This document shows positions 14,271 through 27,500 of a stretch of 64,000 nt of DNA, piece by piece. The translations under genes were made by a program, and so were the position numbers. Origin of the DNA: Planctomycetota bacterium (GTDB lineage Bacteria; Planctomycetota; Phycisphaerae; Phycisphaerales; Phycisphaeraceae). The stretch spans positions 62,001-126,000 of the forward strand of contig JAPLMQ010000302.1 in the NCBI GenBank assembly GCA_026386955.1. The letters are read 5' to 3'. Positions within the stretch are counted from its first letter, which is position 1; each line of letters opens with the position of its first letter. The notes beneath the pieces were generated by a model. It did not search any database, was not told the DNA's origin, and saw nothing but the letters and a program-made list of their open reading frames with translations.

Positions 14271-14344
14271 CGGCTTGCCCTTATCGACTCAACTTATCCT
14301 TCGGCGATCCGCGGCTTGTGGGCGGATAGTTCGGATGCCCGAGC

Positions 14345-14915
14345 TTACGGAACGGCGTTCGACGCATTGGCTGCATTTGCTTGGGGCGCAACGCCGCGCC
14401 GCGCGAGCGCCGCTCGCAAGGCGGTCATCGGCAGGCCGACGACGGTGGTCGGGTCGCCCTCGACCGTCATCGGCCAACCCGCGCGCTGGCGATCGAAGAG
14501 GTTGTACCCGCCCGCTTTCCCGCGCCATTGCCCGGAATCGAGGTATTCCTCGAGATCCCCGGCAGCGACGCGACGCATGTTCACGACCGCCGCGTCGGCG
14601 AACCGTTCGGGCTGAACGTCGTCCGCGCCCAGCAGCGCCACGCCCGTCACCACATCGTGCGACCGCTCCAGGAACGGCGACGATCACCGCACCGGGGTGC
14701 CGTTGAAAGATGCCCGCGTCGCGCAGGCTCGCGGCCTTGAGCGCCGCGAGCTCCGCCGCGGTGCGCCGGGCGTCGGGCACGCCCTCGGCGGGGTGCTCCG
14801 GCTCGGGCGGGTCGGCGAAGGGCGGGTCGGCCTGGATGAATGCGTAGCCCGCGTCGCGCAGCAGCCGGGCCCGCTGCGGCGAACGGCTGGCGAGAATGAG
14901 CAGGATCGGCGTCAC
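14345..14915 (-). pseudogene. maf: maf-like nucleotide pyrophosphatase, internally deleted and frameshifted
   Basis: The N-terminal half reads (GTG at 14915) TPILLILASRSPQRARLL and ends at HPGAVIVA near 14675. The family then continues with A-D-T and G-K-P segments that carry essential Asp and Lys. Here the next recognisable part, RSHDVVTGVALLG through LDSGQWRGKAGGYNLFD and VVGLPMTALR, follows immediately in a different minus-strand frame (14345 to about 14672). Roughly 27-29 codons are missing at the junction, so the active site is lost. Intact length would have been about 215 residues. An assembly error is the alternative. ATG at 14922-14924 is another possible start, but TACAAT lies 7 nt before the GTG. 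Confidence 0.8.
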
Positions 14916-14928
14916 GCGCGGCATTGTA
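14916..14928 (-). promoter_or_regulatory. Predicted leaderless promoter box of the maf remnant
   Basis: TACAAT on the minus strand (14923-14928) lies 7 nt before the GTG at 14915. The same spacing as at intact genes suggests the promoter is preserved although the gene is broken. Confidence 0.4.
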
Positions 14929-15277: not shown

Positions 15278-16591
15278 GTGCGAACGATCGCGGTCATCAA
15301 CCAAAAGGGCGGTTGCGGCAAGACCACCCTGGCCATCAATCTCGCGGCGGTGCTCGCGGCCATGGGCCGGCGCACGCTGCTGGTCGACATGGACCCGCAG
15401 TCCCACTGCGCCCTGGGATTGGCGGTGCCCGAGGCCCAGCTCGACCACTCCATCGGCGACATGCTCCGCGCCGGGATGGATGGCTCGCTCGCCTTCTCCG
15501 ACGTCGTGTGGCAGATCTCGCGCAGCCTCGACCTCGCGCCCAGCACGATGGCCCTCGCCGGCATCGAGCAGGAGCTCTCCACCGCGATCGACAAGGACCG
15601 CCGGCTCGCCCAGGTCCTCGCCCCCGTCGACGACCAATACGAATTCTGCATCGTCGACTGCCCGCCCTCCATCGGGCTGCTGACCTTCAACGCCCTCCGC
15701 GCCAGCCAGGAAGTCATCATCCCCGTCGAGACCGGCTACTTCTCGCTCCAGGGCGCCGTGCGCCAGGAGGCGACGATCGAGATGCTCGCCCGCCGGGCCG
15801 GGCACAACGTGCGCTTCATGGTCCTCGCGACGATGTACGACGTGCGCACCAAGCTCGCCCGCGAGATCCTCGCCGAGCTCAAGCGCCACTTCGCCGACAA
15901 GCTCCTGCCGGTGGTGATCAACTTCAACGCGAAGCTCAAGGAGGCGGCCAGCTTCGGCCAGCCGATCACGGAATACGACTCCTCGAGCCGGGGCATGCAG
16001 GACTTCGACAAGCTCGCGGCGTGGCTGCTCGCCAACCCGCCCGCGCCGGCGGTGGTCGAGCTGGCGGAGGGCGAGACGCCCGTCGTCGCCGCGGCCGCGC
16101 CTGCGATGAGCCGGGCGGCGGAGCTGGTCGAGCGTGCCCGCGCCCTCGCGGCCCGCACCGCGGCCCTCTCCACCAAGCTCTCGGGCGACAGCGACATCGT
16201 CCGCGAGCGCTTGGCCGACCCGCCGGCCCCCGCGCCGGGCGTCCTCCAGCCGCAGGCCGGGGCCGCCCCGGCGGCGAACCTCGCGGAGAAGCTCGCCCGC
16301 GTCTACGGCGCCCGCGCCACCTCGCAGGGATTGCTCTTCGTCCAGCCGGCGCCCACGGCCTCGTGCGTCTACGTCGCGGGCGACTTCAACGGCTGGTCCG
16401 ACACCGCCACCCCGCTCAAGCGCGACGAGCGCCTGGGCGTCTGGCAGACCTGCATCCCCGTGCCCCCGGGCCGGTACCGCTACCGCTTGGTGATCGACGG
16501 GCGCTGGACGCAGGACCCGTTCAACAAGTACGTCGAGGTGAACCCGTTCGGCGAGCTGAACAACGTCGTGGAGTTCGGGGACGAGGCGTGA
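15278..16591 (+). CDS. ParA/Soj-family ATPase fused to a C-terminal CBM48-like domain
   Basis: 437 residues. Residues 1-250 are a full ParA ATPase: deviant Walker A QKGGCGKTT with the signature Lys, Walker A' VDMDPQ and Walker B FCIVDCPP. A helical linker (about 265-345, Ala/Glu-rich) leads to residues about 348-437, which match the AMPK-beta/CBM48 glycogen-binding fold (YVAGDFNGWS, GRYRYRLVIDGRW, then NNVVEF). ParA ATPases position chromosomes, plasmids or protein complexes; the added domain would bind alpha-glucan or serve as a protein-binding sandwich. No parB partner is adjacent. The GTG at 15278 has GAAAGGA 7 nt upstream. The next gene is 70 bp downstream. Confidence 0.88.
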   Translation: MRTIAVINQKGGCGKTTLAINLAAVLAAMGRRTLLVDMDPQSHCALGLAVPEAQLDHSIGDMLRAGMDGSLAFSDVVWQISRSLDLAPSTMALAGIEQELSTAIDKDRRLAQVLAPVDDQYEFCIVDCPPSIGLLTFNALRASQEVIIPVETGYFSLQGAVRQEATIEMLARRAGHNVRFMVLATMYDVRTKLAREILAELKRHFADKLLPVVINFNAKLKEAASFGQPITEYDSSSRGMQDFDKLAAWLLANPPAPAVVELAEGETPVVAAAAPAMSRAAELVERARALAARTAALSTKLSGDSDIVRERLADPPAPAPGVLQPQAGAAPAANLAEKLARVYGARATSQGLLFVQPAPTASCVYVAGDFNGWSDTATPLKRDERLGVWQTCIPVPPGRYRYRLVIDGRWTQDPFNKYVEVNPFGELNNVVEFGDEA

Positions 16592-16661: not shown

Positions 16662-18827
16662 ATGGAAGATCCCCGTACCCGCGCGGCCCTGGACAATCTC
16701 GCCGACCTGTTCCTGACGGGAACGGCCCCTGTGGGCGTCGGCGCCGCCGCCGCGGCGGCGAGCGCCAATCCGCCTTCGGGCAACCCGCCCGCGCCCGGGG
16801 CAGGCGCGGGTGCAGGCGGGGCTGAAAAGACCGACCGCAGCGACGCGCTCGACGGTCCCCGACCGATCCGCCTGGCCCCCAAGCTCCGCCCCAACCCGCC
16901 TTCGCAGGGCTCGCCGCTCACCGGCCTGCCGATGCCGCCCGCGCGGCCGTCGCGCCTCAGCCCGCCCGGCGCCCCTTACGCCGGCGCTGCGGCCAACAAG
17001 CCGAGCGGCTTTCCCAACAGCTTTGAGAAGAGCGCCGCCTCCACCAGCGGGACCGCCGGCTCGATCGGCGTGAGCCCCGACGACTTCGACGACGCCGCGG
17101 ACGATGAAAACGACGACACGCAGGGCAGCGGGCCGATGCGCGGGCCGAAGCGCGATGGCCTGGCCGTCTCGTCGGCCGTCGAGGCGGTCTTTCTCGGCAA
17201 CCTTCCCGGCTTCGGCGGGCCTTGGCTGACGCAATACGCGCGGTTCCTCGCGCAGGGCGGGCCCGGGCCGGTCGGCGTTTTGCGCGTCGACGGGGAGCAG
17301 ATCTCGCTCGAGCTCGTCGGCACGCCCAAGCCGCCGCTCCCGCAGGACCTCGGCGAGGAAGACGCCGACAGCCAACAGACCGTCGAGAGTTGGGCCGCGC
17401 TCGCCGCTGGCGAGGAGAACCTCATCGAGCTGCTCGACGGGCTCGCATCGTTCGAGACGACGCCCGTCCGCCGATGGCTGGTCAACTTCGTCCGCCCCAG
17501 CGAGCCCGCAGCCGTCGCGATGGCCCGCGAGCTCGACCGCTGGACCTTCCTCTGCGGAGCGGACCAGGCGGCGGTGGTCGGCGCCTATCGGCTGCTCAAG
17601 CAGTTGGTCGACGCCGACGGCGGGCAGACCGAACGCCAAGTCGGCTTCATGATCATGGGCAGCGACGAGGCGACCAGTCGGCGGATCGTCGACCGCGTCG
17701 GCGCCGCCGCGGCCGAGGGCTTGCTTCGCCGCCCGCTGGAATTCCGCGGCACTCAGAAGCAGATGATGCCCGTGAGCCTGCACATCATTGGATCGTTCGC
17801 CCAGACCCCCAAGCTGTGGGAGGAGATGGTCGGCTTCTTCCAGAGCCAGGGCGACATCGAGGAAGCGCCTCTGGGCGCGGCCGAGCAGGAGGACGACCTG
17901 GCTTTCCCCAGCGCGGGCAAGCCCGCCGCTGCCTCGGCCATGACCGGCGACGCCCGGCTCGGCGCGAGCCTCGACATGGAAAGCATTCCCGAGGAGATGG
18001 TCTCGGCCGACCCGCCCGCGCGGGCGATGCCGTTGGCGGCAGCGCCTTCGCCGGCCCGGCCTGTCGCTCCGCCTGCGGCGAATGTGGCCGCAGGTGTGGG
18101 CGGTTCACAAGCCGCGCCTCCGCCTGTTCGTCCCTCCGTCGCGCCATCCGTCGCGCAGCCTGCCGCGCCGTCGTCTGAAAACGAAGCCGCTGCCGCGGAC
18201 GAAGTCGCCCCGGCCCGGCCTCGCTCGTTCCTTCCGCCCCGCGCCACCCCACCCGCACCGCGGACCGCTCAACGCCCCGCGGCGCAGGTGTCGCCGGCCT
18301 TCGCGGCCGAATCCGCTGCCGCATCGAGCCAAACGGCCCGCGCCAGCGCGGAGGTCGCCGAGCCCACCGAGGCGGCCGGGGTCTCTCCGGACTTCGCCCC
18401 TGACTTGGCCCAGTACGTCGCCGGCGGCGTCGCCCTCGAGGCGCGTTGCCCGCGCCACCCGCAGACCAGCCTCGTCCTCGACGAGCAGGGCGTGCTGCAC
18501 CTGCTTCGCCGCCACGCCTCCGCCCCCCCGCTGGGCATGCACCGCGACGCCCCGACGCGCGACGCCACGCAGGAAGTGCTGCGGGCCGCGATCGTGGATT
18601 TGATCGAGGCCCGCGCGTGGGTGCGCGAGAACCTCGTGCTGCTGTCGATGACGCAGCGGCAATTCCGCTTCGACGCCGCCGCCGAGCCGGTGCTGCACCT
18701 CTTCACCGACCAGGCCAAGCCCGCGGCCGCGCTGGTGGCCCACCTGGGCGCGCTGATCAAGCTGCACCTCCTGCACGAAGTCCGCGTCGGCGCGACGGTG
18801 AGCTGGTTCAGCACCGAGTTGAACTGA
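16662..18827 (+). CDS. Large protein with a degenerate MinD/ParA-like domain
   Basis: 721 residues, not recognised as a named family. Residues 1-155 are Pro/Ala/Gly-rich and disordered. Residues about 165-375 look like a MinD/FlhG-type fold without nucleotide-binding motifs: FLGNLPGFGGPWLTQYARFL stands where Walker A would be, and FLCGADQAAVVGAYRLLKQL and VGFMIMGSDEATSRRIVDRV match the positions of the T-P-E-x-x-x-x-x-D-A-Y-x-L-I-K and V-x-N-x-x strands of MinD. A second long Pro/Ala linker (about 430-590) precedes a helical C-terminal domain (about 590-721). TAGACT lies 10 nt before the ATG. It probably works with the preceding ParA fusion; the pairing is an inference. Confidence 0.6.
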   Translation: MEDPRTRAALDNLADLFLTGTAPVGVGAAAAAASANPPSGNPPAPGAGAGAGGAEKTDRSDALDGPRPIRLAPKLRPNPPSQGSPLTGLPMPPARPSRLSPPGAPYAGAAANKPSGFPNSFEKSAASTSGTAGSIGVSPDDFDDAADDENDDTQGSGPMRGPKRDGLAVSSAVEAVFLGNLPGFGGPWLTQYARFLAQGGPGPVGVLRVDGEQISLELVGTPKPPLPQDLGEEDADSQQTVESWAALAAGEENLIELLDGLASFETTPVRRWLVNFVRPSEPAAVAMARELDRWTFLCGADQAAVVGAYRLLKQLVDADGGQTERQVGFMIMGSDEATSRRIVDRVGAAAAEGLLRRPLEFRGTQKQMMPVSLHIIGSFAQTPKLWEEMVGFFQSQGDIEEAPLGAAEQEDDLAFPSAGKPAAASAMTGDARLGASLDMESIPEEMVSADPPARAMPLAAAPSPARPVAPPAANVAAGVGGSQAAPPPVRPSVAPSVAQPAAPSSENEAAAADEVAPARPRSFLPPRATPPAPRTAQRPAAQVSPAFAAESAAASSQTARASAEVAEPTEAAGVSPDFAPDLAQYVAGGVALEARCPRHPQTSLVLDEQGVLHLLRRHASAPPLGMHRDAPTRDATQEVLRAAIVDLIEARAWVRENLVLLSMTQRQFRFDAAAEPVLHLFTDQAKPAAALVAHLGALIKLHLLHEVRVGATVSWFSTELN

Positions 18828-18885: not shown

Positions 18886-19190
18886 CTGATCCGAGACGGA
18901 CACTGTGTGTCCGAAGATCGGGCGCGCAGCGGCACTCCGCTCGCGCGAAGCGCCAATTCCACAATGACGATCCGTAACGCCCATCCCCGTAGGGTGGCGC
19001 TGAGCGGTACCCCCGGAATCCGCGAAGCCCACCGGTTGGGCGTCCGGTGCACGTGCGCGGCCCGGTTTGTCGTTCGCCACCTCGGTGGGCTTCGCGAGTA
19101 CGCTCAGCGCCACCCTACAAGAAGGGATTCGCGCGGGCGGAGTACCGCTGCGCGCCCGTTCTTCGGCGACACAGTCGCCGGCTCTGATCA
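18886..19190. repeat. Inverted-repeat element, family A copy 2, interrupted by a family B element
   Basis: Outer arms of about 60 bp (18886-18946 and 19131-19190) are imperfect reverse complements and align with the 4825-5051 copy (CTGATC ends, GACTGTGT core, GCAGCGGTACTCCGC block). The middle holds a complete family B element (18989-19118), so B inserted into A. It lies between the convergent degenerate-MinD gene and flgM. A small dyad, CTGATGAG ... CTCATCAG, lies just outside at about 18847-18878. Confidence 0.85.
18989..19118. repeat. Inverted-repeat element, family B copy 1 (nested in family A)
   Basis: Perfect 18-bp ends (GTAGGGTGGCGCTGAGCG and its reverse complement) with an inner block GCGAAGCCCACCGG repeated in inverse as CGGTGGGCTTCGCG. 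Total 130 bp. Confidence 0.85.
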
Positions 19191-19226
19191 GATCAGAAAG
19201 AGCGTTTCCACAAGACAATTGGCATG

Positions 19227-19260
19227 AAAAAAAACCGCCGCACGTGTGAACGTGCGGCGG
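19227..19260 (-). terminator. Rho-independent terminator of flgM
   Basis: On the minus strand a perfect 11-bp stem (CCGCCGCACGT / ACGTGCGGCGG, loop of 4) is followed by eight T residues, 60 bp after the flgM stop. It is the clearest intrinsic terminator in the window. Confidence 0.9.
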
Positions 19261-19319
19261 CGTGGTTTCATCAACAGTGAGGAGGACGGTGATCCGTCCT
19301 CAGCGTTCGGTCTCCGCGG

Positions 19320-19601
19320 TCAATCGCGCAGGTCGTCCAACAGACCGTTGATCGCGCCGTCGAGCTTTTCGGGCGTCTCATAGGTGCCCTTGGCGATCTC
19401 GGCCTTCACGCGGTCGACCAGGTCCTGACGGACGTCGGGCAGCTTCGCCAGACGGCTGAGCAGTTGGGCCTTCTGCGAGAACTCCGCCTTGTCGCCGCCG
19501 CGGGAGGGCGTCTGGTCGACGGTCGGGGTGGATTGTGTCGGACGTCCGAGCCGGGTGGCCGAGGCCGCGGCAGGCCGTCCGATGGGTGCGATGTCACTCA
19601 T
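19320..19601 (-). CDS. flgM: FlgM-like anti-sigma-28 factor
   Basis: 93 residues. The C-terminal half has the FlgM pattern: VRQDLVDRVKAEIAKGTYET followed by P-E-K-L-D-G-A-I-N-G-L-L-D-D-L, where the K-x-x-I-x-x-G-T-Y core contacts sigma-28. The N-terminus is Pro/Ser/Thr-rich and unstructured, as expected for a protein exported through the flagellar apparatus. The start at 19601 is fixed by GAGGAG 7 nt upstream. A strong terminator follows. Its job would be to hold sigma-28 until the hook is built. No other flagellar gene is in the window. Confidence 0.8.
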   Translation of the reverse strand: MSDIAPIGRPAAASATRLGRPTQSTPTVDQTPSRGGDKAEFSQKAQLLSRLAKLPDVRQDLVDRVKAEIAKGTYETPEKLDGAINGLLDDLRD

Positions 19602-20209
19602 TTGAATGCTCCTCACGCGTCGCCGTTTCGGCGGCGCTTGGGCCGAGGTTTTGATCCCCAAATCCTGATGGGATTCACCTCAGCGGTTTGCGGTGGGGCC
19701 GCTTCCTTGCAGTATTAGTATCGCCCATCGCCCTCGAATGTCTTGAAGGAATGAACAACCGACAGTCAATTCCGCAACACCATTCATTCAATCGACTTAT
19801 ACAATGATTCAGAATTGAACGTCCGGTAAGAAACAACGCCCCTGCATTGGCGGCAACCGCCGCGCAGCGAACAACCCGAACGGGTTATCAGACCAATTGC
19901 CGACGAACCAGTATAGCCTCACCTGCCCGGAATCCAGCGCCCCTTGGAATGAAAATTGTTCGGGAAAATGACGGGTCGTTTGGCCGGGGGGCCGGGGAAT
20001 ATCCGGGGCTTGAGGCGGCTTGATCTTCACGCGGGCCCGGGTTCACGCCTGGGTGGCGCTCGTGGCCTCGCCGCGTTCGGGCCTGGCGCGAGATTTAGAT
20101 GACGCCCGTGCGACTATGATGGCCACACGTGCCGCATCTCCATCATCACCCCGACCAACTCACGCCCTAGGCCCCCGGCCCCGGCCCCCCCCGGAACACG
20201 GAGACTCCC
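19602..20209. other. Gene-free region between flgM and the YHS-like lipoprotein
   Basis: About 600 bp, partly AT-richer (19740-19830). It holds the leader and promoter of minus-strand flgM. On that strand AAGACATT - 11 nt - GGCGATAC (19718-19744) loosely resembles a sigma-28 promoter. AACCCGAACGGGTT (near 19868) is a 14-bp palindrome. TATGAT near 20115 is a possible -10 for the plus-strand lipoprotein. A 73-codon minus-strand frame at 19809-20030 has no start signal or recognisable content and is not called. Confidence 0.4.
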
Positions 20210-25979: not shown

Positions 25980-27500
25980 ATGCGCATCCTCTACCTCGAC
26001 ATCGACTCCCTCCGCCCCGACCACCTGGGCTGCTACGGCTACCACCGCAAAACCTCGCCCAACATCGACCGCGTCGCCGGCGAGGGCGTGCGCTTCGACA
26101 ACCTCTACGTCACCGACGCGCCCTGCCTCCCGAGCAGGACCGCGCTCTGGTCCGGCCGCTTCGGCATCCACACCGGCGTGGTGAACCACGGCGGGGTCGC
26201 CGCTGAGCCCTTCAACCAAGGGCCCGACCGCGGCTTCCGCTCCCGCCTGGGCGCGACCAACTGGATGACCTGCCTGCGCGAACGCGGCCTCAAGACCGCC
26301 ACCGTCTCCCCCTTCGGCGAGCGGCATTCCGCGTGGCATTGGTATGCCGGGTTCAGCGAGATCCACAACACCGGCAAGTGCGGCATCGAGCGGGCCGACG
26401 AGGTCGCCCCCGTCGCCCTCGACTGGATCAAGCGCAACGCCCGCGACGAGAATTGGTTCCTCCACGTCAACTTCTGGGACCCGCACACCGGCTACCGCAC
26501 GCCCGCCTCCTTCGGCGACCCCTTCGCCGCCGACCCGCTCCCCGCCTGGCTCACCGAGGAGGTCCGCCAACAGCACTGGAAAGGCGTCGGCCCGCACAGC
26601 GCCCGCGAGATCCCCGGCTTCAGCGACGAGCCCTACAACGACCCCGAGCTGGGCTACGACTCCTACCCGCGCCAGCCGTGGAAGGCCGACTCGATGGCGG
26701 TCGTCCGCCAGATGTTCGACGGGTACGACACGGCCATCCTCTTCGCCGACCACTACGTCGGGCAGCTCCTCAACGCTCTGGCCGACCAGAACGTCCTCGA
26801 CGACACCGTGATCGTCATCTCCTCCGACCACGGCGAGAACCTCGGCGAGCTCAACGTCTACGGCGACCACCAGACGGCCGACCAGATCACGACGCGCGTG
26901 CCGCTCATCGTCCGTTGGCCGGGGATCACCAAGCAGCGCGGTGCGAAAAGCGGGGGGCCGTCCGGCGGCCCCGGTCGCGTCGACTCAGCCCTGCACTACC
27001 ACTTCGACTTCGCCGCGACGATGATCGAGCTGACGGGCGGCGAGGTGCCCGCGATCTGGGATGGCCGATCGTTCGCCGACGCCTTCAAGGCCCAGCGCGA
27101 GCAGGGGCGCGACTTCCTGGTCGTCTCGCAAAACGCCTGGAGCTGCCAGCGCTCCGTGCGCTTCGAGGACTACCTCGCCATCCGCACCTACCACGACGGC
27201 TACCGCGGCTACCCCGAGTCGATGCTCTTCGACTTGAAGCGCGACCCGCATGAGCAGCACGACCTCGCGCCCGCCCGCCCCGACCTCATGGCCCGCGCGA
27301 TGTCGATGCTCAGCGGCTGGCACGCCGAGATGATGCGCACCGCCACCCACCCCACCGACCCGATGTGGACCGTCCTCAGCGAGGGCGGCCCCGCCCAGAC
27401 GCGCGGGACGCTCAAGGCCTATTGCGACTGGCTGAGGAAGACCGACCGCGGGCATTGGGCCGATTTCCTGATCGCGCGGCACCCGACGGAATACATGTGA
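25980..27500 (+). CDS. Formylglycine-dependent sulfatase
   Basis: 506 residues of the alkaline-phosphatase superfamily. The sulfatase signature C-L-P-S-R begins at Cys49 ([15 protein letters not shown]), the residue converted to formylglycine. Metal-binding Asp residues are in [16 protein letters not shown] (residues 5-20) and [12 protein letters not shown]. No signal peptide is seen, as the protein starts directly with the first metal-binding strand, so it may be cytoplasmic. It would cleave sulfate esters from a carbohydrate. No formylglycine-generating enzyme is in the window. The ATG at 25980 is used. Confidence 0.92.

Follow-up and report, generated by a model that had tools for sequence, protein, structure and literature searches.

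The partners of ParA/MinD ATPases are described as extremely varied, and a large number of these ATPases are 'orphans' whose partner is not known (PMC10241942). Generally, an N-terminal peptide of the partner acts on the ATPase while the rest of the protein binds cargo (PMC10241942, PMC13170346, PMC12462528). The N-terminal motif of ParB, for example, binds the ParA dimer interface via hydrophobic residues and activates the ATPase via a basic one (PMC12462528), and other ParA/MinD partners act likewise (PMC13170346, PMC10241942, PMC12204374). Here we describe a gene pair from a Planctomycetota bacterium of the family Phycisphaeraceae (order Phycisphaerales; assembly GCA_026386955.1), in which the gene for a ParA-type ATPase with a C-terminal CBM48 module (ParA-CBM48) is followed by the gene for a 721-residue partner protein. 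Both lie in a stretch of 64,000 nucleotides of contig JAPLMQ010000302.1 (positions 62,001 to 126,000, forward strand), which is referred to as the window and whose numbering is used throughout.

The arrangement recalls that of ParB, McdB and PomX in that the partner is encoded directly after ParA and begins with a short peptide followed by a disordered linker. Unlike those proteins, however, it has a body made up of a FlhG-like domain without an ATP site (hereafter pseudo-FlhG) and a domain with a predicted PD-(D/E)xK-like fold, and it lacks the CTPase and helix-turn-helix domains of ParB (no Pfam match). The PomX/PomY/PomZ system of Myxococcus xanthus likewise combines a ParA-type ATPase with partners that are large and partly disordered, although there the partners are two and the cargo is the FtsZ ring. 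We read the pair as working in the manner of the ParB and McdB systems, with a partner that is neither a ParB nor a functional FlhG. More specifically, we consider it fairly probable, if well short of certain, that the partner is a dedicated adaptor and ATPase-activating protein of ParA-CBM48 and that the two form a positioning system of the ParB/ParA, McdB/McdA kind. No paper on the ParA-CBM48/pseudo-FlhG pair was found in the open PMC literature, a scope outside which most subscription papers fall. The pair is linked order-wide, its ParA bears a glycogen-type module, and the partner has a recognizable origin, apparently a dead FlhG that took on this role. The pair would illustrate one protein of the ParA/MinD superfamily turning into the adaptor of another, and it provides an entry point to what Phycisphaerales cells position inside.

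A partner gene linked to ParA-CBM48

The ATPase gene (15278..16591, plus strand, GTG start) encodes 437 residues in which Pfam recognizes AAA_31 (2.5e-45), AMPK1_CBM (1.5e-12) and CBM_48 (2.1e-8). Its Walker A sequence, KGGCGKTT, lies at 15305-15328, and the deviant Walker A is kept in all 108 of the 108 ParA open reading frames (ORFs) that were inspected. The partner ORF (16662..18827) starts 70 bp 3' of this gene on the same strand. An earlier note on this DNA, made from the sequence alone, had described a 721-residue protein with two long linkers, the segment GAYRLLKQL and FLGNLPGFGGPWLTQY in place of a Walker A; all of these are present in the ORF. The central domain is flanked by two low-complexity linkers rich in Pro and Ala, and an alignment of 30 relatives separates the variable linkers from conserved islands: a peptide at residues 1-20, a short motif at residues 61-74, the central domain at residues 170-398 and a C-terminal domain at residues 579-721. 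The protein had no match in Pfam, NCBIfam or the PDB sequences, and PDB sequence searches with the protein itself or with profiles of our alignments A2 and A3 gave no meaningful relative. That the gene is real follows from its relatives, which were detected in 164 of the 201 genomes of the order with a single-sequence query of the central domain and in more with a profile. Scanning the genome contigs with the single partner protein as query returned nothing, while the alignment as query returned matches.

ParA itself was found in 200 of the 201 genomes. When only genomes with listed places for both proteins were counted, the partner lay directly 3' of ParA on the same strand in 107 of 113. Four of the other six have the two genes on different contigs, and the remaining two (G049 and G055, of one genus) have them ~9-10.5 kb apart on opposite strands. 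Thirty named loci had been found through the partner and are biased for pairing; 79 loci were selected by ParA alone. Among the latter, the partner was directly downstream in 75, with both of its domains recognized in 74 (iterated profile). Three of the four misses are contigs that end at the ParA gene, and the fourth is genome G015 (locus L148). Regarding these samples, loci L071 and L170 come from one genome, and many genomes of L012-L041 are represented again in L042-L070. The two genes, whose conservation as a pair the earlier note had suggested checking, are thus neighbors in most relatives, and neither of the outcomes that the note named as refuting it (genes that adjoin in no relative, or a predicted fold unrelated to P-loop ATPases, see below) was observed. 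A ParA without CBM but with the partner was seen in 15 of the 79 loci. Because these CBM-less ParAs still have the partner, the ATPase and its partner are the core of the system, and CBM48 is an accessory that can be lost.

A search of the phylum with A2 matched 31 of 392 genomes: 28 belong to the order, and the three others, from elsewhere, matched only weakly (E 2.5e-4 to 4.3e-4), with no match in the ten listed genomes from other orders of the same class. ParA-CBM48 also occurs outside the order, and CBM48 was encountered on ParA in three lineages. Four further ParA loci at the phylum level (L217, L218, L220 and L221, of five fetched, the fifth being L219) lack a CBM. In a sister family of the class (L211-L214 and L216), the ParA-CBM48 ATPase is 51-54% identical, and three of the five loci also contain a gene for ~865-869 residues that runs convergently toward it.

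The central domain resembles FlhG but lacks its ATP site

Residues 170-398 (17169..17855, plus strand) were modeled by AlphaFold2 with a predicted local distance difference test (pLDDT) score of 90.1 and a predicted template modeling score of 0.87, using 28 sequences as input; the model closes with a helix at the end of the domain. The predicted fold is that of the P-loop ATPase superfamily and specifically of FlhG/FleN, a MinD-like ATPase (PDB 4rz2, 5j1j and 7ejw). The top eight Foldseek matches in the PDB were all FlhG/FleN chains, the best being FlhG 4rz2 (E 1.2e-5), and VIA-align gave FlhG a Z value of 12.4 (root-mean-square deviation 3.5, 160 aligned) as compared with 9.3 for the best row outside FlhG/FleN. 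The structure alignments were made without L050, L066 and L067 in the case of A2 and without L066 and L067 in the case of A3.

Profile comparison with hhalign led to the same family. The pseudo-FlhG profile (104 of 106 rows) matched a FlhG profile from the same order (14 of 30 loci, the start pattern not being found in the others) with 96.8% probability (E 2.4e-10, 114 columns), whereas the neighboring ParA family scored 0.17% and the reversed, column-shuffled and C-terminal-domain decoy controls at most 1.1%. The similarity covers the C-terminal part of the domain and takes in a DAYxxIK-like segment: residues 299-315 of the partner, GADQAAVVGAYRLLKQL (17556..17606, plus strand), align with the TPEPTSITDAYAMIKTV region of FlhG. 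Given 96.8% for FlhG as opposed to 0.17% for the ParA family, the domain is, judging from the profiles, a degenerate homolog of FlhG and not a ParA duplicate; an origin by duplication of the neighboring ParA was ruled out on the same values.

The former P-loop now reads GNLPGFGGPW (residues 179-188; 17196..17225, plus strand). Neither a Walker A lysine nor a deviant Walker A (KGGxGK[ST]) occurs in any of the 106 pseudo-FlhG members, while the replacement loop, G(N/H)LP(G/V)...W, is itself conserved (L in 99%, P in 97% and W in 96% of the 106, a count in which a long insertion misplaced the loop segment of L050, whose loop is visible in a separate alignment). Because the lysine is missing throughout and the new loop is nearly invariant, the sampled family appears to descend from an ancestor that had lost the P-loop, and the loop that replaced it appears to be under constraint. 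We infer from these sequences that pseudo-FlhG binds no nucleotide. The central observation of the earlier note, an ORF with a MinD/FlhG-like region of the MinD/ParA-superfamily fold but without Walker A, is therefore confirmed. The partner further differs from FlhG/FleN in that the domain is embedded between linkers and paired with a ParA. An enhancer helix of the FlhG type, defined by the motif DQAxxLR (PMC12826062), was not noticed when the listed N-terminal segments of the members were read by eye.

From the combination of an active ATPase and an inactive relative, the earlier note had proposed a heterodimer or an antagonist. The nucleotide-free domain would then dimerize with ParA, or compete with it, and so poison or tune the ATPase. 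The shared superfamily fold and the adjoining genes would be in keeping with such an arrangement. However, the domain is of the FlhG type rather than the ParA type and both ATP-sandwich lysines are gone, which makes a ParA/pseudo-ParA heterodimer unlikely. In addition, the dimer interface of ParA/MinD ATPases is described as allowing homodimers only (PMC10241942), and the N-terminal peptide described below would provide a simpler contact. We therefore attach only a small probability to this proposal.

The FlhG ancestry of the domain, with the matched FlhG segment retained, also brings a flagellar module to mind, in which pseudo-FlhG would bind FlhG targets (FlhF, FliM/FliN, FliA or GpsB) and ParA would place the flagellum or its export gate. 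The earlier note had taken a hint of a polar or flagellar target from the flgM gene that lies ~490 bp downstream of the partner in convergent orientation (19320-19661, minus strand; Pfam 1.5e-8). FlgM was found in none of 50 related loci, however. Moreover, FlhA is missing in 30 of the 201 genomes of the order (the last ten deduced from absence in the hit list), of which at least 20 still have the partner, 14 of the 20 being at least 90% complete. Eighteen of the 20 were tallied by single-sequence search, G018 by the phylum search and G057 by profile. When seven FlhA-less loci were read with profiles, the pair was seen in six (L138, L162, L166, L168, L172 and L194) but not in L148. Because the pair is kept in FlhA-less genomes, a flagellum is not needed for it, and the flagellar role drawn from flgM was rejected. 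The source genome also encodes an ordinary FlhG with KGGVGKS elsewhere, and no DQAxxLR-type motif was noticed in the N-terminal segments read by eye. A flagellar module is thus very unlikely, and heterodimer, antagonist and flagellar device are all less likely than an adaptor.

An N-terminal peptide with ParB-like counterparts outside the order

The partner opens with MEDPRTRAALDNLADLFLTG (16662..16721, plus strand), which is presumed to be the ParA-binding element based on motif counts and on its form in outgroups. A strict version of this acidic/hydrophobic motif, typically (Y/L)DxLA(D/E)LFL(G/T), is present in 84 of the 106 members, whereas 200 shuffles gave 0.23 on average and never more than 2 in 106. 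Many of the other 22 carry a variant of the motif or were truncated at the limits of the searched segment.

Two lineages outside the order provided the outgroup form. In G255, which belongs to another order of the same class, the gene after ParA-CBM48 encodes a homologous partner (profile E 7.8e-12, hhalign 95.3%) with the start MADIPKNREGRGISSIAHHFL / MADIPKNREGRGISSIAHHFLSN. In G256, from another class (represented by three genomes), the gene in this position is recognized by the FlhG profile (E 2.8e-8; hhalign 76.7%, as opposed to 0.3% for the reversed control) and encodes a protein with a ruined P-loop that starts MKRKKLGRGIEDFIGAF; it had no direct match to the Phycisphaerales pseudo-FlhG profile (E 0.56). 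Both proteins open with a ParB-type ParA-binding motif (KKLGRGIEDFI and EGRGISSIA), and this GRG(L/I) feature is shared with ParB: the same N-terminal motif is found in six of six ParBs adjoining ParA in unrelated bacteria (for example KRRLGRGLAALIGE, LGRGLAALIGE and GLGKGINALF), two of the six being annotated as ParB and four assigned by motif and position. A ParB-like ORF that begins MSEKKLGRGLDFLISG is present in G256 as well. A G(R/K)G(L/I/M/V) sequence occurs within the first 22 residues of 22 of 3233 ATG-started ORFs (0.7%), a set of real and spurious ORFs from the fetched loci in which the outgroup partners are counted. A phmmer search with the 25-residue peptide of the G256 partner retrieved no ParB chain. 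Aligned by eye, the outgroup GRG-I-S-S-I-A-H-H-F-L corresponds to Y-D-A-L-A-D-L-F-L of the Phycisphaerales. The peptide and its ParB-like outgroup form point to an adaptor that binds ParA instead of the antagonist of the earlier note.

Two other short elements are conserved in the pair. The linker of ParA contains a helix, RAAELVERARALAART (16112..16159, plus strand), that is a candidate docking element; its strict RAAEL-type pattern occurs in 59 of 108 ParA tails and in none of 108 shuffled tails. The first linker of the partner contains a second motif, L.GP.PIRL.PK (16842..16883, plus strand), apparent in the Phycisphaeraceae family alignment and found as a loose pattern in 33 of the 106 members as compared with a shuffled mean of 6.1.

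The C-terminal domain is probably a non-catalytic scaffold

The AlphaFold2 model of residues 579-721 (18396..18824, plus strand) has a pLDDT of 92.9. Foldseek returned no match to it below E 1e-3. The top VIA rows were nearly all of the PD-(D/E)xK type (PaqCI, Z 8.3; an EndoMS-type repair nuclease of Pyrococcus, 8.1; XisH, 7.5; Shedu, 7.1), and because these values are near the stated noise level of the tool, the fold assignment is only moderate. Unlike in the nucleases, the ExK residues are not conserved, Glu and Lys not being among the six commonest residues at those positions in 103 members (positions aligned by eye to the hairpin). The domain is therefore probably a nuclease-like scaffold without catalytic activity. 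A regulatory or defense role, in which it would act on DNA or RNA instead of serving in positioning, could appeal to the predicted fold but not to the missing ExK residues. Moreover, neither the partner nor its outgroup relatives had a PADLOC match, the central domain had no match among PLSDB plasmids, and a single gene pair kept order-wide is unlike a mobile defense island. We hold such a role to be highly improbable; a defense system and a plasmid origin were both rejected on the PADLOC and PLSDB results.

Three strands of the C-terminal domain display an LHLL/LHLF/LHLL pattern (18495-18515, 18693-18710 and 18762-18779). Their histidines are conserved in 94, 81 and 86% of the 103 members and possibly form a metal or ligand site.

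A model for the pair and its possible cargo

In the adaptor model, ParA-CBM48 would bind ATP, dimerize and coat the nucleoid. The N-terminal peptide of the partner would dock on the ParA dimer and help trigger hydrolysis, with the long disordered linker giving it reach, while pseudo-FlhG and the nuclease-like domain, both devoid of catalytic residues, would be binding scaffolds that tether cargo or mediate self-assembly of the partner. Because the ParA carries CBM48, an alpha-glucan body is a lead for this cargo; a flagellum would not be required.

Several findings weigh against the model. The weakest link is the Phycisphaerales peptide: unlike those of ParB, McdB and PomX, it has no conserved basic residue, the ParB position included, and the known activating peptides require one (PMC13170346). 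The PomY helix, however, has no basic residue and yet docks in a model; it has been proposed to bind without strong activation (PMC13170346). By analogy, the Phycisphaerales peptide may bind ParA without strongly activating it, or another basic site, such as that in PIRL.PK, may contribute. Furthermore, the ATPase can occur without the partner, since the five sister-family ParA-CBM48 loci have no recognizable adjoining partner and the ParA of G015 has neither a CBM nor a partner. Finally, no cargo gene is linked to the pair order-wide, and the linkages to DnaJ-ClpB and Maf-LpxK-RfaE described below are confined to the Phycisphaeraceae among the loci tested.

The CBM48 of ParA (16304..16576, plus strand) is an AMPK-beta-like glycogen-binding module by its Pfam match, although here it is fused to an ATPase and not to a kinase subunit or a glucan enzyme. 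At the positions presumed to contact glucan, two Trp, a basic residue (Arg for Lys) and an Asn are largely retained (W in 97%, R in 91%, W in 85% and N in 76% of 91 relatives, matched by eye). We take the Asn position to be the counterpart of N150 in AMPK beta. Glucan-contact residues of AMPK beta named in the literature are W100, K126 and W133 (PMC2642990). This retention, together with the occurrence of CBM48 on ParA in three lineages, suggests a pair that organizes an alpha-glucan or another polysaccharide. In this cargo version of the adaptor model, the roles of the two proteins are exchanged, with CBM48 anchoring ParA to the polymer and the partner acting as a release factor or as a bridge to the nucleoid or membrane. 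However, the CBM is absent in the 15 loci noted above that keep the pair, and no glucan gene was recognized among the recurrent neighbors. Strong matches to GT5 glycogen synthase (PF08323) were obtained in only 2 of the 201 genomes, other glucan routes being outside this search, so that classic glycogen synthesis is not an obvious context. On balance, the exchange of roles seems unlikely to us. With so few GT5 matches, no correlation could be drawn from co-loss with glycogen synthase, and this route to a glycogen link was abandoned. Canonical GT5 is thus nearly absent from an order whose ParA bears a glycogen-type CBM.

Returning to the adaptor model, it is conceivable, but doubtful, that ParA-CBM48 and its partner spread alpha-glucan, or a structure coated with it, over the nucleoid when the cell divides. 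If this idea is true, a ParA motor would have a carbohydrate polymer as its cargo, neither protein nor DNA. In another version, the pair would position the site of division; binary fission has been reported for Phycisphaerales, and an absence of FtsZ for Planctomycetes (PMC5147048).

Neighboring genes and repeats

A frequent gene order in the Phycisphaeraceae is RfaE-LpxK-Maf (divergent), ParA, partner, DnaJ and ClpB, with DnaJ and ClpB on the same strand after the pair (L042-L070; for example 9956-13608 in L053). In one genus (L060 and L149), ParA has relocated but DnaJ-ClpB still adjoins the partner, possibly a sign of a protein-quality-control cargo in this family. Neither the Maf-LpxK-RfaE nor the DnaJ-ClpB neighbors were seen in the 19 loci of other families, and in the window no DnaJ or ClpB gene adjoins the partner.

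The Maf gene of the window looks broken (minus strand, 14289-14924 and 14345-14653). Its N-terminal part has a Pfam match of 2.5e-6 over residues 9-82 and its C-terminal part is apparently Maf as well; because the two lie in different frames, the gene looks either frameshifted in the assembly or degraded.

Directly behind the partner gene there is a 64-nt inverted repeat (18886-19191, 86% complementary, arms 178 nt apart). Translated pieces of it recur near 27500 (QPVGFA...THPT), which suggests a dispersed repeat or the remnant of a mobile element. It is followed by a 22-nt hairpin (19224-19271, 82% complementary, 4-nt loop) that is possibly a terminator between the partner gene and flgM.

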